Assembly: GCA_949130485.1 (NCBI GenBank)
Contig: OX422185.1
Location: forward strand, 9,424,118 to 9,488,117
DNA length: 64,000 bases
From: Agelas oroides
Taxonomy: Eukaryota; Porifera; Demospongiae; Agelasida; Agelasidae
Direction: 5' to 3'
Shown here piece after piece: positions 1,707 through 35,600 of this stretch. Positions within the stretch are counted from its first letter, which is position 1; each line of letters opens with the position of its first letter. A model generated the notes under the pieces. That model saw only the letters and a program-made list of their open reading frames with translations. It had not been told where the DNA came from and ran no database searches. A program made the position numbers and the translations under genes.

Positions 1707-3430
1707 AAACCAGTGGAACCAGTAGAACTAGAGGAACCAGAGAAACCAGAGGAACCAGAGGAATCTGTTGAATCAGTGGAACCAGGGGAACCAGAGGAAC
1801 CAGAGAAACCAAAGGAATCAGTGGAATCGGTGGAACCAGGGGAACCAAAGGAACCAAAGGAACCAGAGGAACAAGAGGAACCAGTGGAACTAGAGGAATG
1901 AGAGGAACCAGTGGAACCAGTGGAACTAGAGGAACCAGTGGAACCAGAGGAACCAGTGGAACCAGTGGAACCAGAGGAACCAGAGGAACCAAGGAACCGG
2001 AGGAACCAAGGAACCGGAGGAACCAGAGAAACCAGAGGAACCAGTGGAACCAGAGGAACCAGTGGAACCAGAGGAACCAGTGGAAACTAGTGGAACCAGT
2101 GGAACCAGTGGAACCGGAGGAACCGGAGAAACCAGAGGAACCAGTGGAACCGGAGGAACTAATGGAACCAGAGGAACCAGTGGAACCAGAGGAACCAGGG
2201 GAACTAGAGGAACCAGTGGAACCAGTGGAACCAGAGGAACCAGTGGGACTAGAGGAACCAGTGGAACCAGTGGAACCAGGGAACCAGGGGAACCGGAGGA
2301 ACCAGGGGAACTAGTGGAACCAGAGGAACCAGAGGAACCGGAGGAACCGGAGAAACCAGAGGAACCAAGGAACCAGAGGAACCAGTGGAACCAGAGGAAC
2401 CAGTGGAACCAGAGGAACCAGTGGAAACTAGTGGAACCAGTGGAACCAGTGGAACCGGAGGAACCGGAGAAACCAGAGGAACCAGTGGAACCGGAGGAAC
2501 TAATGGAACCAGAGGAACCAGTGGAACCAGAGGAACCAGGGGAACTAGAGGAACCAGTGGAACCAGTGGAACCAGAGGAACCAGTGGGACTAGAGGAACC
2601 AGTGGAACCAGTGGAACCAGGGAACCAGGGGAACCGGAGGAACCAGGGGAACTAGTGGAACCAGAGGAACCAGAGGAACCGGAGGAACCGGAGAAACCAG
2701 AGGAACCAAGGAACCAGAGGAACCAGTGGAACCAGTGGAACCAGAGGAACCAGTGGAACAAGTGGAAACTAGTGGAACCAGAGGAACCAGAGGAACCAGT
2801 GGAACCAGAGGAACCAGTGGAACCAGAGGAACCGGAGAAACCAGTGGAACCAGAGGAACCAGTGGAACCAGAGGAACCAGTGGAACCAGAGGAACCAGTG
2901 GAACCAGGGGAACCGGAGGAACCAGTGGAAACTAGTGGAACCAGTGGAACCAGAGGAACCAGTGGAACCAGAGGAACCAGTGGAACCAGTGGAAACTAGT
3001 GGAACCAGAGGAACCGGAGGAACCAAGGAACCGGAAGAACCAGAGGAACCAGTGGAACCGGAGGAACCGGAGAAACTAGTGGAACCAGAGGAACCAGTGG
3101 AACCAGTGGAAACTAGTGGAACCAGAGGAACCAGAGGAACAAGTGGAACCGGAGGAACCAGAGAAACCAAGGAACCAGAGGAACCAGAGGAAACTAGTGG
3201 AACCAGAGAAACCAGTGGAACCGGAGGAACCAAAGGAACAAGTGGAACCGGAGGAACCATGGGAACCAAGGAACCAGAGGAACCAGAGAAACCAGTGGAA
3301 CCAGTGGAACCAGAGGAACCAGTGGAACCAGAGGAACCAGTGGAACCAGAGGAACCGGTGGAAACCAGAGAAACCAGAGAAACCAAGGAACCAGTGGAAA
3401 CTAGTGGAACTAGAGGAACCAGTGGAACCA
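1707..3430. repeat. GGAACC minisatellite, about 1.7 kb
   Basis: The array is built from 9-bp units of the form GGAACCAGT, GGAACCAGA, GGAACCGGA or GGAAACTAGT. Because the unit length is a multiple of three and the units lack stops in most frames, several frames stay open on both strands (Glu-Pro and Thr-Ser-Gly on plus, Val-Pro-Leu on minus). No splice sites, initiation context or unique coding flanks support translation, so I read it as non-coding satellite. The plus strand is strongly purine-rich in GGAA blocks. Confidence 0.93.
2044..2725. repeat. 341-bp higher-order tandem duplication inside the minisatellite
   Basis: The irregular variants (GGAAACTAG, GGAACTAATGG, CCAGTGGGACTAG) recur in the same order with an offset of 341 bp: positions 2044-2384 and 2385-2725. 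Since 341 is not a multiple of three, the same unit is read in two different frames. The near identity points to a recent unequal exchange or replication slippage of a large block. Confidence 0.85.
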
Positions 3431-5070
3431 TTACAATACTAGTTACTCATGATTAAGTAATGCATTATGTAAACATTACGTCATTTCAGGACTTGCTATA
3501 TGTGCCATCTGCCGCTTCTTCGGGTCCAATTAACATGTCTGGATCCAGTTCCATCTTCGATCCGCGCGCGCAATGCGCAAGGAATAAACATTACAAATTG
3601 TGATGTCACCACATGGAGTTGGGTGAACTTAGTGAACCCCGTCACGCAATGTTCGAACGGAACTGAAATCTACAGTAATGTACCAGGCTCTCCCCCTCAT
3701 TAGCGGGGAGAGGCTGGGAACGAGGCTATCCTTCGCTTATCTGATCTGGTCCAGTCAAGCCAAGTTTTGGGGACAGTGCATACAGGTGAGCTTAGCACAC
3801 TCCATGTTGCTAATTAAACCAGTAACGTGAAGTTTCAAGAGAGAAGGGAAACGTACCTAGGGTTTAACCGAGCGAGTATAACATGTCGGATGCATGTAGC
3901 TACATGTGTGATGGCTGAACGTCGAAACGTACCAGGATTCTCGCTCGGCTTTTAGCGGGCGGTTCTGCACTATTGGATTGATTGCAATACCATTTGCATG
4001 TGGTAAATAGTAAAAGCACAGTTGGGTTACTTCCTGTGTACATGGCCTGGATTTTGTTCAAGAGCACAGGAAAGTCCCAGGGGTGTAAGAGGGTCCATGG
4101 AGTACTCGTCCAAGGGGGTCCAAGTCTGTGAAGCATCTTTTCCGGGGACGCAACTCCATGGAGTGTTGGTCCCAGGGCGCAAGTCCATACACTGTCCCAA
4201 GGTCTACTTCGATTGGACTGAGCCATCTGTACCAAAACCAATGACTGTCTGTCCCAGTGGTTAAATAGAATGACGACATCAATAGGGAGTGTATCCCCAT
4301 TTAGAAGGAATAGCCCAATCCTGCCTACAGCAGTTACTGACCTGGCTTCCCACGTCAACAGTGGTATGTAAACATGGAGTTTCATACCTGCTATTGCATT
4401 GCACACCATTTGGAAGTACGTAAATTTCTAGCAAGAACGCTGAAAACCTACTGACATTTCATTTGAATCAGGCATCAAGGTACATAAAAGTGGCTCCTTA
4501 TGAAATTTTGTTACTGTTAATTCTTTGTGCTGCTACACAGAATCTGATGCTGGATGGAAAACGCACAGTCAGAAAGCAAATCAGGAGGTATGTTCATCTA
4601 AATCTCTTACAGACTTATACTGTTGGCTTTCGGTAGTATCTACTGTACAACCAGGGGCAATTATGCAGATGCCCAGTAGTACCAAATGATGGTGGTAATG
4701 TAGAGGTGTCAGAAGCATTTTAAGGCCATTGCAGTGTGTGTGTAAGTACCAACGGGGTCTGGCAGCATGCTCCCCAGGAAAATTTTCAGTAAGATGCAAT
4801 GAGGTTACTTCTGAGGCCACTTTTGGGCCATAAGCACTGCTATAGTCTTTTGTTCAGTCTCATGAAAATATTACCACTTGATGCCAGGATGCAAAAACTG
4901 GTTCAGTCACAACTCACAGCACAACAATGATTGAAACTATCCAAAATCACACTTGGTAAAAACTGAAACCTCATGGTTATTGAGGCTCTTACAGCACTAT
5001 TTGACTCCTGTGGTATTACTCATAGTATGTGCTGTTGATTTACTAAACATTAATCTTCTAATTACATTTT
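3431..5070. other. Non-genic stretch with a small hairpin
   Basis: No gene is supported. An imperfect hairpin (ccaggctctcccc at 3683 and its complement ending near 3716) is followed by a tgggaacgag tail that recurs elsewhere in the window. Around 4080-4170 the phrase tccatggagt is repeated about 58 bp apart. The 169-residue minus frame over this area looks like a by-product of such repetition. Confidence 0.4.
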
Positions 5071-5275
5071 TAACCCTCGGCGTGCATGCGCAGCGAGGGT
5101 TACTGTATTTGGTCTGTGTGTCTGTCTGTCTGTTACTCAACATCTCACTTTATACGTGATTATTCGTGCCACAAACGATACTACCCTTCTCAGCAGCGGA
5201 TGAAGGTCGAAAATTTTAAGCGATTTTCTCTGAAAATGCTTCGTTGTGAAGCTAGAGTGTTTCCTGTTTAATCAT
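5071..5275 (+). repeat. Dispersed repeat with CCCTCGGCG...CGAGGGTTAC end
   Basis: It starts with a short inverted repeat around a gcatgcgc core, continues into a gtctgtctgtctgtta tract and ends in sequence related to gaaaatgcttcgtt. A second copy lies inverted at about 39297-39500 and shares the same three landmarks. Confidence 0.7.
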
Positions 5276-5692
5276 ACACTGCTGACAATGGCTATTTCTG
5301 TGCAAGGCCTTGATGCAAACTAGTGTGAAAACGATGCAGGGATGAGGCTTTGTATATTTACCTTCACTATATCATCCCTACCTTGTTTGCATACTTTTTG
5401 GCATGCCATCCCTACATCTTTTTACATTTTTAATGTTTTTTAAGTCTTGTAGTATATACTAGTAAGATGCTGAATCATCCTGGGGTGAGCTAGCCTCATC
5501 CCCAGGCCCATTCGAAAAATCGGAGAAGAGGGCCTGGTATCCACTGTTTGCGCATGCGCTTAATTTCCCGACATTCCGGGAATTCCGGATAATACCGTGT
5601 TACCTCCGCGTGCCGTGACGTCAGGTACATGTATTTTGCCGTATATTTAATCGTACACTGCTGACAATGGCTATTTCTGTGCAAGGCCTTGA
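5269..5692. repeat. Direct repeat of about 48 bp, two copies 379 bp apart
   Basis: The stretch containing acactgctgacaatggct followed by atttctgtgcaaggcctt occurs at about 5273-5317 and again at 5652-5692. The sequence between includes a MITE copy (5335-5424), consistent with an insertion or partial segment duplication. Confidence 0.75.
5335..5424. mobile_element. MITE copy, GATGTAGGGATGG family
   Basis: The right end ggcatgccatccctacatct is shared with copies at 9703-9808 and 10298-10404. The left end (tgcagggatgaggc) is degenerate. Confidence 0.7.
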
Positions 5693-6974: not shown

Positions 6975-7295
6975 GAAGATAGCATTTTGGCTGGTGTCTT
7001 CTTAACATCCTCCGCAGCAATTAGCAGCCTATTGGTAGCTTGGTCCTTGAATTGCTCTATTGCAGCTAGTACTTGAAGTTGGGCACATCCACATTGCGTC
7101 CACCTGACGTCATTCACGTGATAGGTGTTCCCAGGCCTTCCCCGTTTTTCGTGCTCTTCCGCTGCCGTGTATTATACTGAACGCGAACCGAAGAACGAAA
7201 ACGGGGAGGCCTGGGAACAAGGCTATGAAAAGCTCTCTGCAGACTTCGTCCCCACAGAGCTCACATACATGTAATATTGAGTCGTAAGACACCAT
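6975..7295 (-). pseudogene. Broken copy of a small unidentified gene (left arm)
   Basis: The minus frame starts MVSYDSIL at 7295 and runs through GDEVCRELF. It is then cut by a small palindromic insert (7137-7217), after which homology to the plus-strand copy at 13111 resumes with LAAIEQFKDQATNR and EDVKKTPAKM. The middle part present in the other copy (an Ala/Ser/Pro-rich stretch) is missing. About 140 bp upstream of the ATG also match the other copy, so a promoter-proximal segment was duplicated too. I do not recognise the family. Confidence 0.6.
7137..7217. mobile_element. 81-bp palindromic insert
   Basis: Terminal inverted repeats gttcccaggcctycccgttt at both ends flank a core of about 35 bp. 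It interrupts the small gene relic on the minus strand. Similar ends (gtctcgttccca / tgggaacgagac) form a hairpin at 9177-9230 and appear near 3711 and 13903. Confidence 0.75.
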
Positions 7296-7879: not shown

Positions 7880-8648
7880 CAGTGCTGTTTGTATCCCTTA
7901 CACAAAACTCACTTCAACAAATTTCATTCAACATGTGGACTAACAATGATCTCGTGATACAGAACTTGTTTTCAATAAGGTGTTTTACCGTGCCCACCCA
8001 CTCATTGAGTGTGCACGGGTCTGCTCCCTCCTTAGAAGCCCACTATCTCTACTTGTGTACTCCCTCCATGCACAGTTTCAGACACAGATCCCAGTTGATA
8101 TTATTTTGCTCTCTAAAATTAGGGCTTTTTCTAATGAAATGTCTAAGTTTCCTATTGGTTATGATGCTGAGGTCACCAGTGACCACATGGCCTAAGGGCT
8201 GGTAAAGAAAGGCAGATGAACTGCACTTGCAGTTTGTGCAGTCGTCGCTGGATAGGTTAATGCTCTCTGTAACTTTGTTAAAGTTGAAGACTGACGGTCC
8301 TATAGTCTTGGTATATTTGTAAGAAACTGTTGGGGTTCATTTGTTCAAAAAACACTGGGATTTAACCTGCCTGGAACGGAGTATCCCACTCAAGTTGATC
8401 ATTTCGATGCCTTTGTTATGGAATTTTACTTTCAAAAAATGCTTATGGTTATTCTCTTTGGTATGCTGTTTTGGAGGCTGAGGCTGAGAGGTACCTAGTC
8501 TAAATTTGATCAAATCCTTCAACATTAGAAGGAGATGAGTAGGAAAGGCATGGAGGTGGAGTTGTTCCTCAACGAGTGTCCTGGTATCCCTAAGAGAGGT
8601 ATTTCTAAGCCCCAAAATTGCCCTAATGTATTTATGCAGAAAATACAT
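7880..8648 (-). pseudogene. Penelope-like element fragment (region upstream of RT)
   Basis: Reading on the minus strand, three adjoining frames give blocks typical of the region before the reverse transcriptase of Penelope-like elements: VSYKYTKTIG, a C-x2-C-x-C-type stretch (CTNCKC), GHVVTGDLSI, LRHFIRKSPNFRE and NEWVGTVKHLIENKF. Stops near 8336 and near 8057 break it. The RT core and the endonuclease do not follow in sequence, so it is a dead fragment. It cannot be colinear with the endonuclease fragment at 10405-10826, which lies on the wrong side for one minus-strand element. Confidence 0.75.
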
Positions 8649-8720
8649 GGATTTGAATTACCAAGTTTGTTTTTAAGCCAATCACGAGGGTTAGTGTTTT
8701 TTTTTGTATTCTTGTGCTTG

Positions 8721-9385: not shown

Positions 9386-9702
9386 TACAGCTTTAGGTAA
9401 CGCCTGGATGGTCAGTTTTTATGCTCTGTCAGTACAGTTTTTTGTGCTGGTCAGTTGTCATGTGATCGTAAATCAGGAAATCGGCTTCACAAAGGGCTCA
9501 AACTCTGGTACAGAGAGTTATTAACCCTCCATCAGATTCCAGCTGGCATGTTACATGCTTGGAACCACTGCTAAGCTGTCAAATTTATGATGTTTCAAGT
9601 TCTAGGGTTGTAGTTACACTTGAACGAAATCTTCTTAGTATTAGGTCTAACTGTAACTGAGATTAACATCAAAAAAGTACAGAAACAAGAAATAAAAAAT
9701 GT
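9386..9702. other. Non-genic stretch
   Basis: No feature seen. Confidence 0.35.
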
Positions 9703-9808
9703 AAAAAGATGTAGGGATGGCATGCCAAAAAGTATACAAACAAGGTAGGGATGATAGCATAAAAGCAAAGGTTAACATAAAGGCAATGCCCCATCCCTAC
9801 ATCTTTTT
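9703..9808. mobile_element. MITE, GATGTAGGGATGG family
   Basis: About 106 bp with TIR aaaaagatgtagggatgg at both ends. It is nearly the exact reverse complement of the copy at 10298-10404. Confidence 0.85.
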
Positions 9809-10297
9809 CACACTGCAGTTAGACAGCATGCTTGAAACCTAAACCTGCACCATCTGTGGAGTTAATAATGCTGTAAATGAGCACCAACTACTTGAGTTTT
9901 TAAATACTACAGCACTTACTATATGACCAGTCCTGCAGCTCACTTCTGCTCAGTGTCTAGGTTGTATAAGCGGTCCGTATACAATATTAAATGCCAACAA
10001 GGGTTCCACTGTTACTACAAATAGCATGTCAGCATCAAAAGCTACCTGGTCGCTAAATGCATAGCTTCCGACAAGGTACACATACACCACATACCCCATG
10101 CTGCTTAGACTACACTGCAATCTGGACCCCAGACCCTTCTTGCCCTTTCGAAGGGTTTGGAGTCCAGAACCCAGGCCATGTGGGAGGAGGAAAGTGGCCT
10201 GAGAACAAGGTTACAGCGCTATGCCCTTCAAGAACTGCCAGTAAGGTTGTTGTACGTTTTATAGAGACCTCCAATACACTGTCATAACTGCAGTGTG
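9809..10297. other. Non-genic centre of the inverted arrangement
   Basis: Around 10130-10215 there are imperfect inverted phrases (tggaccccagac / gtccagaacccaggcc). No gene seen. Confidence 0.35.
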
Positions 10298-10404
10298 AAA
10301 AAGATGTAGGGATGGGGCATTGCCTTTATGTTGACCTTTGCTTTTATGCTATCATCCCTACCTTGTTTGTATACTTTTTGGCATGCCATCCCTACATCTT
10401 TTTA
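10298..10404. mobile_element. MITE, GATGTAGGGATGG family
   Basis: Same element as at 9703 in opposite orientation. Its edge abuts the 3' end of the Penelope-like endonuclease frame, so it probably inserted there. Confidence 0.85.
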
Positions 10405-10826
10405 TTTCTTTAAAAAATTGAGGCTTCAGGCTTTTAATGTTTGCTCTATGGTTGTTCATTCTTTTCCTCAAGGCTTGACTTGTCTCTCCTACATATTGTA
10501 TGCCGCAACGTTGACAGGTAACTAAATAGACAACATTCGAGGTGCTGCAAGACCAGTCTCCTGAGCCTATAACTTTGTGCGTTTTTCCGGTGACACTACT
10601 TCTAAACATCGTGTAAGCCTTAGCATGTAAGGCAATTCTTGGAGTTACATTTGCTAATGCTGTTTGGTCTTCGATGCTGCTGGGATCTGGAATCATTCGT
10701 GGCGTTGGTACATGACAAACCTGTGTCTTCTTGCTGAGTCTTCGAGGTGCTAGCATCAACAACAAGAGGCACACCTCTAACCTCCTGCATAGTCTTCGAG
10801 GTGCTAGCAATAACTACACTCGGCAC
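10405..10826 (-). pseudogene. Penelope-like GIY-YIG endonuclease fragment
   Basis: The minus frame contains VVYLVTCQRCGIQYVGE followed by LRKRMNNHR. This is the GIY-YIG nuclease pattern found at the C-terminus of Penelope-like retroelements, with the Tyr pair (VYL, YVG) and the Arg helix present. Upstream residues are partly encoded by a tandem 54-bp repeat (about 10739-10846). No reverse transcriptase is attached, and the 3' end runs into a MITE. A hammerhead fold on the same strand lies about 280 bp upstream, where the element's leader or terminal repeat would be expected. Confidence 0.85.
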
Positions 10827-10846
10827 ACCTCTGACCTCATGTAGGG
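10739..10846. repeat. Tandem duplication, 54-bp period
   Basis: Two copies start tcttcgaggtgctagc at about 10739 and 10793, and each ends in the phrase cacacctctracctc. The minus-strand frame reads the repeat as LAPRRL twice. Confidence 0.8.
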
Positions 10847-11102
10847 GACCTTATTGACCCGGGCGACATCCCAGCCAGTATGAATTTTCTTTTTGGACAC
10901 TCATCATGGTTTTGTGTTCGAGCTAGAGGGATAAGTGGCTCAAGCCGCTCGAGAAACCGAGCCAACGTTACCTAGTAGAACACGTGAAGCCGGGGTGCCC
11001 ACAGGGGCACCACCAGACACAGACACGTAAACTAGGCATATGCAGGAACAATCAACGAACCACATCTCCCTTAAAAATAGGCCTATATAGATGTCATGCA
11101 AA

Positions 11103-11165
11103 GTCACCCACTGGGCAGGACGCGTTTCGGCCAATACCAGGCCTCGTCAGCTGCACTGGGGTGAC
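11103..11165 (-). ncRNA. Type I hammerhead ribozyme (predicted)
   Basis: Read on the minus strand, the segment has all parts in order: stem I 5' strand gtcaccc, an internal loop, gcag, the core CTGACGA, stem II GGCC with loop TGGTATT and GGCC, then GAA, ACGCGT and the cleavage triplet GTC, then ctgc, an internal loop and gggtgac. Stem I therefore forms 4 + 7 pairs around an internal loop. Stem III is only the self-complementary ACGCGT, as in the minimal type I hammerheads known from Penelope-like elements and retrozymes, which can act as dimers. Predicted cleavage falls between 11119 and 11118. The core base after CTGA is C, a position that tolerates any base. Confidence 0.85.
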
Positions 11166-11849
11166 CAGGAGTGGGGACTGCTATCTCATACACAGAATGC
11201 CCCTAGTGGGGTTTGGAAATAAGGCTATAGATCTCCTTCAAGCCTAAGTGGAGCCTGGAAATGGAATGAGCTAGGCCGCAAGCCTAAGTTGGGGCATATA
11301 GTCATGTACCCATCATTATGTTGTTTGCTGTTTCCATAGGAGAAAACTGCAAGCAGCACATTAAAAGCTGCATAAAAGCCAGGATAAGTGGCTTAGCGTC
11401 AGGCTTAAGCTAGTTTGTCTGTGAAGCAATTTGACACACAAAAGAGAACGTAATCATGGGAACTGGGGGTGGAGAGGCTTTTGTGGTAGGGAGGAGGTAA
11501 ACTTAGTCTATCGAAGAAGATGCTAAACATTCTTCCTGTTTGACTGTAAGCAAGTTTACAATGGTGTCTCAGATGGAGATTGAGGACACAGTTCAGATAT
11601 AGAAACTGGAAACAGCATAACACATTTGACAGTAGTCTCGTGACCAAACCTTCACACATGTGTGAAGAGGGTCTGGTGTTCTGAGTGACATTTCTTGTCA
11701 CATGGGACAGGGTCACTCTCAAATTCAAGAGCTCCAATCAGACTTTGCGGAAGGCATAATCTATTGCTTGGGGTAAGCAAGATATTGTCGTGCTTTGAAT
11801 TGCAGAGAAAATGTGTCTAGCACCTTTTTACCGCTACGTAGCCCATTAC
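11166..11849. other. Non-genic stretch
   Basis: No gene or clear repeat. The 110-residue minus frame at 11405-11737 has no recognisable features. Confidence 0.35.
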
Positions 11850-12000
11850 ACAAAGTCACAAAAAAGTTTTCTGAACAAAAACAAGCACATGTAGGGATGG
11901 AACCCTCAAAAACCAGGCAAACAAGATGGGAACGACACCACAACACTTTCACACCATCCCTACATCTTGTGCCATTTTGCCTTGTGTTGGTTTGTGTGCA
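11850..12000 (+). repeat. Third copy of the 7490-type repeat
   Basis: It shares acaaaaaagttttctgaac, catgtagggatggaaccctc and the closing catccctacatcttgtgcc with 7600-7700. It lies head to head with the copy at 12258-12500. Confidence 0.8.
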
Positions 12001-12257
12001 TAGGAGGGTGGTGGAAGGCACTGGCTTGGGTAGTGCTCATGGGTATGTAGTGCATGTTGATGTGCATGGAGAGTAAGGTGTGTTGTGGGTTGCTGCAACG
12101 CAATTGCATTGAGCATGGTAGATACGGTCAGTCTTGTATGCTGAACGTGGCAGATATCTTGTATGCAGGAAGGCTGGTGAGTGAGCAGTAGTGAGTGGCT
12201 TGTTCGCTTATTTAGTGGGTTCGAATAGGCTAATGTACATGTTGAGAGTTTTGTGGT

Positions 12258-12500
12258 GTGCATACTTGGCAAAATGGCACAAGATGTAGGGATGTTGTGA
12301 AAGTGTTGTCGTGTCATTCCCATCTTGTTTGCCTGGTTTTTGAGGGTTCCATCACTACATGCACTTGTTTTCGTTCAGAAGACTTTTTTGTGACTTGTTC
12401 CTGTTGTTTTCTTTTTAAGAGAGAAGAGAGGTGGGAGGGGAGGCTGAGGCGAAAATGCATGGTCTGTAAAGTAAAAAGTATAGAACTTTGTTGTTCAAAG
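12258..12500 (-). repeat. Repeat unit of the 7490 type, minus copy
   Basis: Reverse-complement match to 7490-7745 through the dodecamer-like core, the aacaagtcacaaaaaagt phrase, the pyrimidine tract and the tttacagaccatgcat phrase. It forms part of the right arm of the large inverted duplication. Confidence 0.8.
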
Positions 12501-14649: not shown

Positions 14650-17600
14650 GTACATCTGAAGGCATACAAAGGTTGCACATACGTATAGTTGGGGTAAGCC
14701 TGAACAAGACTGTGGTCTATAGAAAATTTTGTCTGTCTATCTGTCTATCTCTGTCTGTCTGTCTGTTTTCTATGCCATTTGGAGTGGTAGGATGTGTGGT
14801 GCATGATATAACTTTCATTACCACGTCCAACATAATCGGGGTGAGCGTGAGTGAGCCCCACACTAGTGAGTTAAATTGCAATTTTTTATTTTATTATTAT
14901 CTGTCGTACGTCATTCCGTATGTTTTTGATGCTATAATTTAACATGATAGCCGGAGGCTACATACGGACCGTATGTAAGATTTGTACTTTCTTTCCTGAT
15001 GGAGAGAATTTTCCGGTCGACTCCTAACCAAGTTCTGACAGAACATGCTGAGTGGCTGCCAGGTGTGCGACTGAGGCATTCAGTACCACCTGTGCAGTAC
15101 ATATGGAGGATTGTGAGGGTTGGTGAGGGTTGGTTGTCCGGCTGTCATGGCTCAGTGGCAGAGCACTGGCGGCTCAAGCCAGACGTGTCCTGGGTTCGAC
15201 TCCCGGCAACTGCCGCCGACCTTTTCACTTTTCTCTATTTTTCACCTCATAACATCTAAATTCCAGTTAGAGCATAAAATTCTTCAACAATACAGCCTAT
15301 AGTTCCATAATTTGCACCAATTGAATAGCTAGTGCATATGTAGCATGCATAATGACTTTCCCAGTATAAGCTGCCTAAAGGAAAAGGACAGTGAATGAAA
15401 AAATAAGCTAACTAGGCTGTGTGCTCATAAACAGCAGATCCTAGTTTCCTAGCTTGTGTGGGCATGCAATTCTGGTAAGGACTGTGCCTTTGCTATTTGT
15501 ATGGGATCAGCATTGCACTTCACTCAGGATCGCCCCACTATGATTCGTCATCTGTCTAGTTACTGAACTGGGGTGACAGTAGTGGAGTTATCTAATTCAA
15601 ACGCTTTCCTCAACTTGTTGATCTACACATTAGTTACTGGTGAGCAACCTGTGGACTATGGATGTTTTTCCTCTGGAAGGAAAGCCAAAGGAAAAGCTGC
15701 ATCAGTCACATTGCAAAAGTGCTACAGTATTCTGACAAACCAGATAACACCAGAAGATATAGCGCCAGAGTTGTTTGCCAAAGAGATCATTAATGGAAAT
15801 GATGTTGAAAAGGCGAAAAACTTTCTCTATCTCAAGCAAGTACGTGCCCAAAACTTACTACTGACGCTGATGAGGAAAGTAGAGGCAAGGCCTGAGTGGT
15901 TTGACACCATCTGCAACATCCTTGAGAAGGAGTCAGTCACTGTTGTGGAGAATCTGAGAAGTACGCATGTTAAGTTGTGACTCTGCATGCAATCCATACT
16001 ACCTCAATAGCTATTCAACGAAACGTAAGATTAGTGCTAATTTTTTTACATGCAGCTCAGTTTGAAACAGCCATAAAGGTAAGCATTTTCTACATGCATA
16101 TAAGTTAATTGATTTTCTTTCAAATTTGCTTTTCTGCTTATCTTTATTCATAGAAGATTGATGGCTGGCAGGCCATGTCCACTGATGATGGTAGGTTTGC
16201 TGGGGTGGACACAGCAACACTGACAGTTTCCCGAGTCCAGCAGTCAGATGAAGGGAATTACAGGTGTACCGTCTCAAACAGATTGGGGAAGGTGACTTCA
16301 AAACTGGCTCGTTTAACAATCAGTAAGTTTATACTTAGAACTATCATGCATAGTTCCTACTTGAGGCAGTTTAGAGACAGCAGTGGTAAATTCCTATGCA
16401 TGCTAAATACGCAGCTATCAAATTTGCACACTCAAAGCCCAAAACTGTCAGAATAATTTTTGCTATCCTTAGTAGCCTAAGTTATCTACTGCTAGTCCTC
16501 ATTCATTAGGTGCTCATGCTGTGGGGTGAGCGTGAGCAAGCCATAGACTGTGGCATTGAACTGTTGTATAGCTAAGGCTTTACCAGTGCAATATCAGATC
16601 CCAGCACACAGGCAGTGGCATGTAACTAAACAAGGTTTGTCATGATTGCAGAGGATAGCTTGTCATGGCGGGTACCATACAATGGAGCCATTTGTTCTAC
16701 CTAAGTAGCTACTCTGGCCAGCTGTATGCTAAGTCTGAACACAGCCTGGCTTATCATGCTTAATCCTTACTTGAGGCATCTTAGAGAAACAGCAGATGGG
16801 GGTTGCCATGCACCAGCCATGAAGCAGGATCTCGGCCACCTTCTGCGTTCAGCATGTCTACACAACTGTTAGCCCTTGTATACATGCAGTAGATACTCAT
16901 GCTCCAGCTGCCTATCGCCGAATATCGCTGCCAACAGAACTGCTATCTCTTGTACAGTAGGTGCACACACTCCAGCTGCCCTTCCTGGCTGTCTTTCATA
17001 AGTGTCATCTTTCAATCACCTTGGAGTTACCTGGCTGCCAGAGAAATCAAGTTGTGCGAAAATCTTACTTATGGCCCACATGCAGCCCGCGACTATCGCG
17101 TTAAATTACAGTATCAAAAGCACACGAAACAACGTACACCAGATATATATATATATGAAAAATCGCAATTCAACTGACTAGTGTAAGGGCTCGCTCACGC
17201 TCACCCCAATAATTTGCATGGGTGCTGCAAGTTAAATCCACCCATAAATTCAAAAATTGTAGTATATTAGATCATGGATGGTAACAGATTTTAATTGCAA
17301 AGCGGTCTTCAACTTTCAGTCTTCAAATTTCTTGTAGTCAAGAGGTTCTTCATGTGTAATAGCGGCTACTAATTTAGTACATTGCTCTTTGACTTGGAAA
17401 TTGCCTTCTATCATGATAGGGTACACTGCTTATTGTAAATTGAGGTTGAATGGGATTGCAGGTCTGCGTCAAGCCTGAGGCTCTATCGTAGTTGTTAAAG
17501 CAGACTTGCTTCTGCTCCACTGCTGTGAGCGCAGTGGCTTGGTGGTACGGTCCAGGATTTGATTCCTAGCTGAATCCCTGTGGATTTTTGTTACGGAACA

Positions 17601-32600: not shown

Positions 32601-35600
32601 AACTCGACCGTCTATACAATTGATTTTATGTACTTACCATATTGTCACGGACAAGCGCCATCCCCGCACAAGCGCCCACCCCCAAATTTTGATAGTTTTA
32701 TAGTTTTTTGTGGTCGTCCGTGTAATGGCCCACGATGCAAAATTCTTGCATAGTGAGCCAAAAGTAGGTCCGCTGAGCTCACGTACATCATTCTGATGCG
32801 CTTCAGGCACCACAACATCTGGCAGCAAAGTTTAGCACACACCCGTCCGTAGCCTCGTTCGCAGCATTCCTCACTTGCAGCACGAAGTGGATACTGCAAG
32901 CAACAAACATTGCAGAGGCTTGTCAACGAGGCTACGCATTGGTCCATTTTCTAGTACGATACAGCTTTCTCTGCCATTGGGCTGACCTCAACAAAGCACG
33001 GGCAAAGCGTGGGCGAAGTGACAATGCAGGTTGATTTGGTACCCCCCAGCAGCTAACTTCTCATCCGGGGTGGGCGCTTGCACGAGGATAGTTGAACCAT
33101 TCAAGCACCTCCTCTGTGCAACTGCCATTCACAATCCACTGATTCAACCACATTCAAGTCAATCCTTCAGCAATCGACTCAATTTACTCACGATTGTCTA
33201 CACGATGAGCAATTTACTCACACCAGCCAACCAACCGCATCACTTAACCACACCCACTGGGCATGTGGAGTAAAGTTTAGCTTTGAACATCTTGTCTCAG
33301 CTGAAAATAAGATATCATGCAGTATATATAGAAGATTTGAGGTTTTCAGGTGGTTGTAGGTTAGTGGTAGAGCATTGGCGGCTTGTAGCTTAGTGGTAGA
33401 GCATTGGCGGCTTGTAGCTTAGTGGTAGAGCATTGGCGGCTTGTAGCTTAGTGGTAGAGCATTGGAGGCTTGTAGCTTAGTGGTAGAGCATTGGAGGCTT
33501 GTAGGTTAGTGGTAGAGCATTGGCGGCTCAAGACAGGAACCCTGGGTCCAATTTCCAATGACAGCCAGCTTTTTACCCTCCTCTATTTTGCCTCATAAAT
33601 TCAAACAGGTCCTTTTCTTTCAGCTGAGGCAAGATATTCAAAGCAACTATAGCTAAACCTTTCTGTGCATGCGCAGTGAGTGTACTCAAGTGTGATTTGT
33701 GACTGCTATATAGCATAACAGTGAATAGTTGTGTCAAAATAGTGACAGTGAAAGTGAATCGAAATAAATTTAAGGATCCTTGTGAGATGCTACCCATCTG
33801 CTACCCAATGGACACTGCAAGAACTGCTCTTGCAAAATGCTCAAACTGTCCACTGTTTCATTATGGCCATTGCTTGAATACTGAACCTCAGCCACAGCCA
33901 CAGCTATCCCTTCCACTACAAACGTTTGACCTAAAATGCCCTCATCTCTGCATACTTCCAAACATGTGCTGTCATCAAAGAGCCTATTGGAGGACAGCAT
34001 TGATCCAGCTAGGTCTGACACTACAAAACCATGACACTGATGGTACTATAGACACTTTCTCCTCAGCTGCTATAGCCACAATACAACAGATCATTGAAGT
34101 TGGCAGTAGTACATGCAATCTCTCAGTTCCACTGTCAGTGATGGCATTTAGTCAATACAAATGGTCCATGTACTAGCTGAGTGACTGTTGTTTGTACATG
34201 TTTTTTTACATGGTTGTAGCCTCATATATACTAGCTGCAGCTACTACTTGAGGGCAGCACTTAATTCGCTTATCGCTTCTTGTGTATCACACTAGAATTG
34301 TAAGCTAGCCATGCTACCAGTACTCAGAGGATTTGTTATGAAATTGTTCAGATGATCTTCCTGGACATTAATGCACGCACTCTATAATGTTAACCTGTTA
34401 CTTACGCGGCACAAACAACGCAAGATTGCTGCTCATATTATTATTTCTCTTGTATAGTGGGTAGCAGGTTATATATTGGTTATCCTAGAGCGTATAACTA
34501 TTATACCTAGTAATATCTCATCATAGATTGCTGATAGTTGTAGAGGTTTTTGGGGGGGGGGGTGGGTTCTGTAGATCTGTACATCATACGTAGCATCACA
34601 TTATTGCAGTCATGCTTTAACAGTGATCCTCTTATTCTACAAGGATGGAAAGACGCTATTGCACTTGGCATGTGAGCGAGGTCACAGCGAAGTTATTGTA
34701 CCACTACTTTTCAACAAAGTTGATATCAACAGTCAAGACAAGGTGAATGAATGTGTTGTATAGCTCAGCTTGATGTGTGTATGATGGTCTTGTGCTCACC
34801 AACTGTGAAGTAAAGCTACACAAAATGTGTAAGTTCTGTGTAAACTGATGGAGATATGGCTAGCTGTTGTACTAATTAATGTGCAGGTAAACCTGGCTTC
34901 TCTCAGTGTCTGCTTTTGAATCCCCCCAGAGACAAAGGACACCACTTCATGCTGCATGTGAGGTTTTCAAGGACTTGCCCTCACAGAAGTTGGTTAGTTA
35001 CACATTAATGCTAACCTATCTCTTCGTTGGACTCTAATGCATGCTCACAGCTACTAAAACACAGCTATGGTTTATTGAGTGATTGTGATAATGTGTTGAG
35101 GATGCAGTCATTCCTTAAACTACTATGGGGATGTTTGAGCATCATGGGGTGAGCCTGAGTATGCAGCACACTGCTGGTTTAATAGAGTAAGTCAGCAATC
35201 ATCGGACGACAGGTATAATCAGACACTCAAACATGGAGAGAAAACTGCGTAAATGCTTGGCGATACCACAAGACTGTAGCGGAGATACGCGGTACATGGT
35301 CTACCAAAAATGACGCCCGAACATTGTTTCCTGTTAACGCTAGAAGCAATAAAATGACTGTCCGAATAAAATCAATCCTCGGATAAATGTATCTATTTTC
35401 GGACACTGTTGTCTGTGCATTCACTGAAGCTGCTTTTGGAGAGATTTTAGCATCGATATGATACCCCAAGACCCCTCCATTTCGCAATCAGTTTTTATCG
35501 CGGTAGGTGCTTTAAGCACTTGGGGGCACGACTAAATATGGACCAGGGTCATCCGATCAATAATCGGATCGTGATATTTGTTGTTTCTTTCTGTGTTGTC

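Follow-up and report, generated by a model that had tools for sequence, protein, structure and literature searches.

Hammerhead ribozymes (HHRs) are built on an invariant core of CUGANGA ... GAA, the A15.1-U16.1 pair and H17, and cleavage occurs 3' of H17. Among Penelope-like elements (PLEs), those of Naiad type are marked by a short CxC linker, a CCHH endonuclease motif and an insertion in the fingers domain of the reverse transcriptase (RT). These elements, in which the endonuclease is N-terminal, are reported to lack canonical HHR motifs in a 2021 survey by Craig and co-workers. We take this absence as a description of the Naiad group, which does not bar a family from belonging to it.

The HHRs known from PLEs (Cervera and de la Pena 2014; Lunse et al. 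2017) lie in the pseudo-LTRs; they are minimal forms that lack helix III or the tertiary contacts and may work as dimers, and no role is known for them (PMC7761336). According to PMC6155905, every PLE sequence to be had in 2017 contained an HHR motif, as a rule a minimal one. An axolotl HHR with a one-pair stem III and a palindromic tetraloop works better as a dimer (PMC7229834). In PAc, the Poseidon PLE of Anolis carolinensis, the HHR is protein-assisted and unprocessed RNA is the dominant substrate; reverse transcription starts 111-118 nt into the ORF and the cut lies 26 nt into it, so that the two are ~85-92 nt apart (PMC11167929). A search of the open literature, with most subscription journals outside it, returned no paper that joins Naiads with hammerheads, and the accessible part of PMC12910113 held nothing bearing on HHRs.

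The stretch analysed here, which we call the window, is 64,000 nucleotides of DNA from the sponge Agelas oroides. On its minus strand it carries a putative HHR that, by sequence comparison, lies in the remnant of a PLE with permuted domain order.

The hammerhead motif

A sequence-only reading had claimed all core parts and three helices of an HHR on the minus strand. Direct reading found every one of them, the strict scan described below agrees, and we regard a well-formed type I HHR motif as confirmed at the level of sequence (Table 1). The invariant core is complete and helix I is open. Outer helix I has 7 bp (GTCACCC/GGGTGAC) and a 2x3 internal loop separates it from inner helix I, GTGCAG/CTGCCC, which has six positions with one mismatch in the window copy (T11155 x C11114); this position is C-G in the intact relatives compared and U-G in L006. 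Helix II has 4 bp, GGCC/GGCC. The palindromic ACGCGT claimed as a minimal stem III was likewise read in place. In a single molecule stem III amounts to one A-U pair closed by a CGCG tetraloop, and the 6-bp ACGCGT helix III is possible only between two HHR copies.

Table 1. Features of the hammerhead motif and of the PLE remnant in the window
Feature	Position	Strand	Evidence
Type I HHR motif, helix I to helix I'	11103..11165	-	Sequence, strict scan, 191 exact cores in genome
Core box CTGACGA	11144..11150	-	Sequence, strict scan; CTGATGA in relatives
Helix II hairpin GGCC-TGGTATT-GGCC	11129..11143	-	Sequence, folding, alignment
GAA (11128-11126) and stem III A-CGCG-T (palindrome ACGCGT, 11125-11120)	11120..11128	-	Sequence, folding
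Predicted cut site, 3' of C 11119 (11119/11118)	11118..11119	-	Motif rule
Helix I 3' strand: inner 11118-11113, loop 11112-11110 (AGT), outer 11109-11103	11103..11118	-	Sequence, folding
Helix I 5' strand: outer GTCACCC, CA, inner GTGCAG	11165-11159 (outer), 11156-11151 (inner)	-	Sequence
Tail of 5'-truncated first PLE unit (pseudo-LTR piece with HHR)	11043..11200	-	Sequence comparison
PLE remnant piece 1: pseudo-LTR, leader, ORF start, GIY-YIG	10408..11200	-	93% identical to L024 1682-2482
GIY-YIG endonuclease part	10412..10612	-	tblastn to L021 ORF
Pfam PF01541 stretch	~10534-10430	-	26.4 bits, E 8.9e-06
PLE remnant piece 2: endonuclease-RT intermediate region with CxC motif (CTNCKC)	7966..8714	-	92% identical to L024 2758-3525
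Foldback insertion interrupting the endonuclease part	9702..10404	.	Inverted repeats 9702-9826 and 10404-10279, 126 bp, 98.4%

The repeat family and the window copy

The exact 32-nt HHR core occurs 191 times (88 + 103) in the 259-Mb genome and the reversed pattern not at all; positions were listed for the first 100 of the 191. By sequence comparison the window motif is assigned to the pseudo-LTR of a PLE with many near-identical copies, several of which have an open 1012-aa frame, the long copies compared being mostly 99% identical. A protein search with the GIY-YIG piece of the window matched at least 150 places (best 150 of 274 candidates scored), and a search with the RT part of locus L021 at least 79 (best 77 of 312 candidates scored) at 76-100% identity. 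Among the RT matches scored, only one family that appears to be of the permuted type was seen.

We considered whether the ORF of the intact copies is frameshifted, an idea that came from tblastn rows in which query 1-68 and 65-134 fell in different frames. It was rejected, as L021 has one open 1012-aa frame and the real frame changes are those of the window copy. There, the tblastn pieces place them near 10620 and near 8650; the RT and everything 3' of L024 3525 were not found in the window copy, nor were the ~275 nt of L024 that lie between the two remnant pieces. The frame changes, the foldback insertion and the missing parts mean that this copy is dead, as the sequence-only reading had supposed. 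Sequence comparison also bears out the earlier placing of the HHR in a PLE terminal repeat, on the same strand as and 5' of GIY-YIG. The endonuclease fragment then described is present, within a larger remnant of two pieces. The window copy thus reads as a dead relic that has kept its ribozyme core and lost one pair of helix I. Just 5' of the remnant on its strand, at 12396-11853, lies another foldback element, whose 129-bp terminal inverted repeats are 93.8% alike.

Several other features were seen in the window. A tRNA-Leu-like gene at 15140-15217 (ARAGORN; Rfam tRNA 32.3 bits, cutoff 29) is perhaps a tRNA-derived repeat, and a 29-bp unit, TTGTAGCTTAGTGGTAGAGCATTGGCGGC, repeated six times in tandem at 33354-33528, resembles by eye the D-arm region of a tRNA. 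A long array of ~192 copies of a 9-bp unit, AACCAGAGG, with strong AT skew occupies 1708-3430, and a long near-perfect palindrome with weak microRNA matches on both strands lies at 7126-7219. Elsewhere in the assembly, contig C141 looks mitochondrial (a COX1 piece, TGA read as Trp, a split gene), and C107:16176-16808 gives a COX1-like match without in-frame TGA, perhaps from a bacterial or other associated contig.

Domain order of the element

In the 1012-aa ORF of L021, GIY-YIG (aa 148-237) scores 24.7 bits, above its cutoff of 22.6, and RVT_1 (aa 652-862) scores 24.4 bits with E 2.6e-05, short of its curated cutoff of 29.6, so that RT and GIY-YIG are joined in one ORF as in other PLEs. GIY-YIG is N-terminal, a linker with a CxC motif (CTTCKCSSS) follows and the RT is C-terminal, which is a permuted order. 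It is because the endonuclease is N-terminal that the HHR sits directly 5' of GIY-YIG. In the six other PLE ORFs scanned (L041, L042, L043, L044, L046 and L050) the RT comes first and GIY-YIG is C-terminal, GIY-YIG in L044 and RVT_1 in L050 being below cutoff. The window piece had been read as part of a Penelope-like endonuclease; its Penelope-like nature stands, and a classical type does not, given the N-terminal GIY-YIG of L021.

The endonuclease of L021 has the residues TCQRCG...NNH...KHF, assigned by eye to the CCHH motif. Its RT motifs A to B' span 75 aa, compared with 51-54 aa in those other PLE ORFs (four of eight) in which both motifs were found, three of these four (L044, L045 and L048) looking like one family. 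On domain order, CxC and CCHH we would class the family as a Naiad-type PLE, the comparison being with the description of Naiads given above.

Hammerhead-like motifs at other PLE loci

A relaxed HHR scan covered 12 other loci, L041-L052, and found HHR-like motifs at L046 (5040-5070), L049 (4783-4816 and 2411-2382) and L050 (4716-4747). The L046 motif is 460 bp, and the L050 motif 261 bp, 3' of an RT/GIY-YIG ORF, and at L049, where GIY-YIG is shown by protein match, the motif is 3' of the GIY-YIG ORF. All belong to the minimal type and have one additional A in front of helix II. The relaxed scan gave no HHR-like motif in L041, L042, L044, L045, L047, L048, L051 (which carries a Gypsy-like ORF) or L052. 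Stricter scans of the other PLE loci recovered none or one of these motifs; since they miss motifs that the relaxed scan picks up, a missing scan match in a locus is weak evidence. L043, a classical PLE locus with an inverted-repeat arrangement, has a TTGAAGA variant (versus CTGAAGA) at 5093-5125 and 6591-6559.

Scans, covariance models and folding

A loose core pattern matches the window at chance level, with 5 overlapping matches at 2 sites versus 4.91 expected. The strict rule (core, helix I of at least 4 bp, helix II of at least 3 bp and a paired stem III) gave one place in the window and 2 matches in 100 random first-order windows; it sets no minimum loop for stem III, hence ACGCGT scored as 3 pairs. 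In the loci analysed it gave one match outside the family, on the minus strand of L003 at 1392-1359 (the same place as L038 2003-1970), beside a short family tail and within an inverted repeat, which is either chance or the HHR of another element. A chance motif in the window was rejected on the strict rule and the repeat family, though the loose pattern is at chance; the 191 exact cores of the family are stronger evidence than the scan statistics.

Rfam release 15 gave no hammerhead call in the window at gathering or at E<=5, and none at E<=10 over 10000-12500; the nominal match over the motif was JPX_2, with 18.5 bits against a cutoff of 48. The sequence-only reading had proposed a covariance-model search in which a score below threshold would count against the motif. 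Such a score was obtained, and we do not take it as a refutation: hammerhead calls were also absent from L002, L021 and L024, which carry the same HHR, and from L046, L049 and L050. Because Rfam misses the HHR-like motifs at these last three PLE loci too, its silence on the window HHR means little. The Rfam test looks insensitive to HHRs of such forms, by controls that are themselves predicted. A model built from the family, R1, was run on 19 sources and gave three strong matches, all from that family, and one at E 0.55 in L006; it recovered no HHR-like motif at any other PLE locus. Relatives were also sought in a collection of viral contigs (6 pattern matches, 0 confirmed) and one of genome contigs (16 pattern matches, 0 confirmed), and a search of solved structures returned none.

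The unconstrained fold of the window HHR is an inactive form in which GACG of the core pairs with CGTC, and it is ordinary compared with shuffles (z -1.16; 24 of 200 shuffles as good). The active fold of the dimer reaches -67.1 kcal/mol in L021, versus 2 x -29.7 for active monomers, and -54.3 in the window copy, versus 2 x -23.3. The energy minima of the dimers are inactive too, at -58.4 versus -54.3 kcal/mol for the active form in the window copy and -67.6 versus -67.1 in L021. Covariation within the family is almost nil, the copies in the 12-row alignment being too alike (mean identity 95%); between families, the HHR helices differ in sequence while pairing stays. A single divergent copy, L006b, has kept the core, has broken helices and has ATGCAT in stem III. 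We considered ATGCAT as a compensatory change and rejected it, as CpG decay accounts for it equally well.

Units, dimers and ends of copies

There is one HHR per 3558-bp unit. In L021, L024 and L026 two pseudo-LTRs lie 3558 bp apart with an HHR in each, and in a fourth dimer, whose cores lie at C1:22297034 and 22300587, each pseudo-LTR has an HHR and the period is 3553 bp. These four elements have pseudo-LTRs from partial head-to-tail units, as PLEs do. Bases 1-1837 of L024 equal 3559-5395 at 100%, while between its two units L021 shows 2 differences in 1349 aligned positions and L026 shows 2 in 1137. In L021 the cut site would follow the ORF stop of the upstream unit by 371 nt and precede the first in-frame Met by 208 nt.

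Variants match between the two units in all four dimeric copies. At shared variable sites the units of L021, L024 and L026 agree wherever both are covered, though the elements differ from one another: 1470G/1546A is found in L021 and L026, and 1530A/1700G in L024. The fourth dimer has its own deletion and 1773C in both units, with 1 difference in 415 bp; one change in L021 (column 49) is confined to a single unit. By these variants we assign both units of a dimer to one source, which fits repeated copying of one circular RNA and equally a uniform tandem source.

A shared 3' end, ...TTGATTGTTCATG, lies ~73 nt past the cut in 22 elements (L002-L008, L021-L030, L033-L036 and the element of L055), after which the flanks diverge; indels in L005, L006 and L008 shift it by a few to ~13 nt and microhomology blurs it by a few nt. 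It is not visible in the window copy (lost), L031 (retrieved sequence ends) or L032 (decayed), and L037-L040 are the same elements as L002, L003, L005 and L007. Since the copies extend this far beyond the cut, the HHR was uncut in the RNA that templated them. None of 16 elements has its 5' end at the cut, the nearest being L022 at 18 nt past it, with element ends taken as BLAST alignment ends. The 16 are L022, L023, L025-L032, L034, L037-L040 and L054; outside the tally are L021, L024, L033, L035 and L036, which run off the retrieved sequence, and L004, L006 and L008. Among these 16 elements the DNA shows no trace of ribozyme-made 5' ends.

Discussion

We consider it about 75% probable that the motif is the HHR of a permuted PLE (N-terminal GIY-YIG, CxC linker, C-terminal RT; Naiad type) with a role in cleaving tandem transcripts. 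Its likely role would be dimer- or protein-assisted cleavage. Transcripts of dimers would carry two HHRs. Within a single molecule stem III offers just one base pair under the palindromic CGCG, so that a monomer would cleave weakly; cleavage would be favoured when two HHRs pair through ACGCGT as a double hammerhead or, alternatively, the PLE protein may assist it as reported for the anole element. Cutting would then shorten read-through transcripts to unit length. The template of reverse transcription is continuous across the HHR, as the copies extend beyond the cut to their common 3' end.

A circular route is distinctly unlikely as a whole. Here paired HHRs would excise a unit-length RNA, a host ligase would close it, and RT starting ~73 nt past the healed cut would round the circle, sometimes more than once. 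If true, it would account for the uncut HHR span, the shared 3' ends, the scattered 5' ends and the matching dimer units at an exact period; it would also explain how PLE pseudo-LTRs arise and link autonomous PLEs with circular RNAs of the retrozyme kind.

The evidence that copies are templated by uncut RNA also suits a passive relic, a motif that folds without cleaving and is carried in the pseudo-LTR since the region serves as promoter or RT start. The 22 elements that run through the HHR, the absence of 5' ends at the cut in all 16 elements and the competing inactive fold point this way, as does the report that HHR mutants of the anole PLE left insertion in vitro unaffected (PMC11167929). 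Core, helices and palindromic stem III are nevertheless intact in near-identical copies, and even the older window copy keeps the core, although an individual copy evolves neutrally once inserted; we hold a passive relic to be unlikely, if a serious alternative. A chance resemblance to a hammerhead within a repeat would explain the silence of Rfam, the near absence of covariation within the family, and the strict matches in random windows and at the one unrelated-looking place in L003/L038. It is hardly credible when the core, the cut triplet and all helices stand at the expected place in a PLE pseudo-LTR, and when L046, L049 and L050 carry HHR-like motifs, unlike this one in sequence, 3' of their GIY-YIG ORFs.

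The motif might instead come from an animal retrozyme, a non-autonomous circular-RNA element of 150-450 bp that came to lie beside GIY-YIG by chance. In the first seven copies retrieved the match to the window spans no more than ~140-166 bp, 67 of the first 100 cores listed (of 191) have no RT match within 1 kb 5' on the same strand (the RT list being a lower bound), and stem III has a form like that of an amphibian retrozyme HHR (PMC7229834). The same HHR is, however, present in PLE copies with the open 1012-aa frame, and the short copies L037-L040 are 5'-truncated PLE tails with 140-404 bp in common with the PLE 3' part; an independent 160-bp ribozyme repeat was rejected on the same ground for the short copies compared. 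At the first 100 of the 191 places we found no non-coding 150-450 bp tandem repeats with a type I HHR, and the sole same-strand neighbours less than 10 kb apart were at 3553 and 3558 bp. A retrozyme origin is accordingly very unlikely.

The HHR of a permuted PLE thus remains our preferred reading. The sequence-only reading was right on motif and context, and the analysis supports as new the permuted element and the non-minimal form of the HHR. A permuted element with a canonical-looking, non-minimal HHR is a new combination if Naiads indeed lack canonical HHRs, and the association of ribozyme and PLE would then be wider than the 2021 survey reportedly states, or have arisen more than once. The finding would be ordinary if Naiads also carry HHRs, as the statement on all PLEs in PMC6155905 may suggest. 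Near-identical copies, open 1012-aa frames and clear dimers make the role of the HHR, whether trimming, circle-making or nothing, directly testable.

Comparison with known systems

The family resembles described PLE HHRs in having a type I HHR repeated in the pseudo-LTRs, a weak stem III and an expected dimer action, and minimal HHR-like motifs occur at other PLE loci of the same genome. It differs in the permuted element and in a longer helix I, to which an internal loop and an outer helix of 7 bp are added; the extra A before helix II in the motifs of L046, L049 and L050 is absent from the window-family HHR. With HHR_Amex1 of the axolotl/newt satellite (retrozyme) it shares a one-pair stem III capped by a palindromic tetraloop, but that HHR sits in a 330-bp repeat and the present one in an RT-coding element (PMC7229834).

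As in PAc, the HHR is near the ORF start; reverse transcription of PAc starts slightly 3' of the cut, and the copies here end ~73 nt past it. The endonuclease of PAc is C-terminal, however, and its HHR overlaps the ORF start, whereas here it precedes the first in-frame Met. The PAc picture of uncut-RNA templates with ends slightly 3' of the HHR is seen here in DNA too.

In domain architecture the family is like Naiad PLEs, with GIY-YIG before RT, a CxC linker, CCHH residues and perhaps the longer A to B' spacing in the RT, together with pseudo-LTRs and partial tandems. The difference is that the family described here has a canonical-looking type I HHR, while Naiads reportedly have no canonical one.
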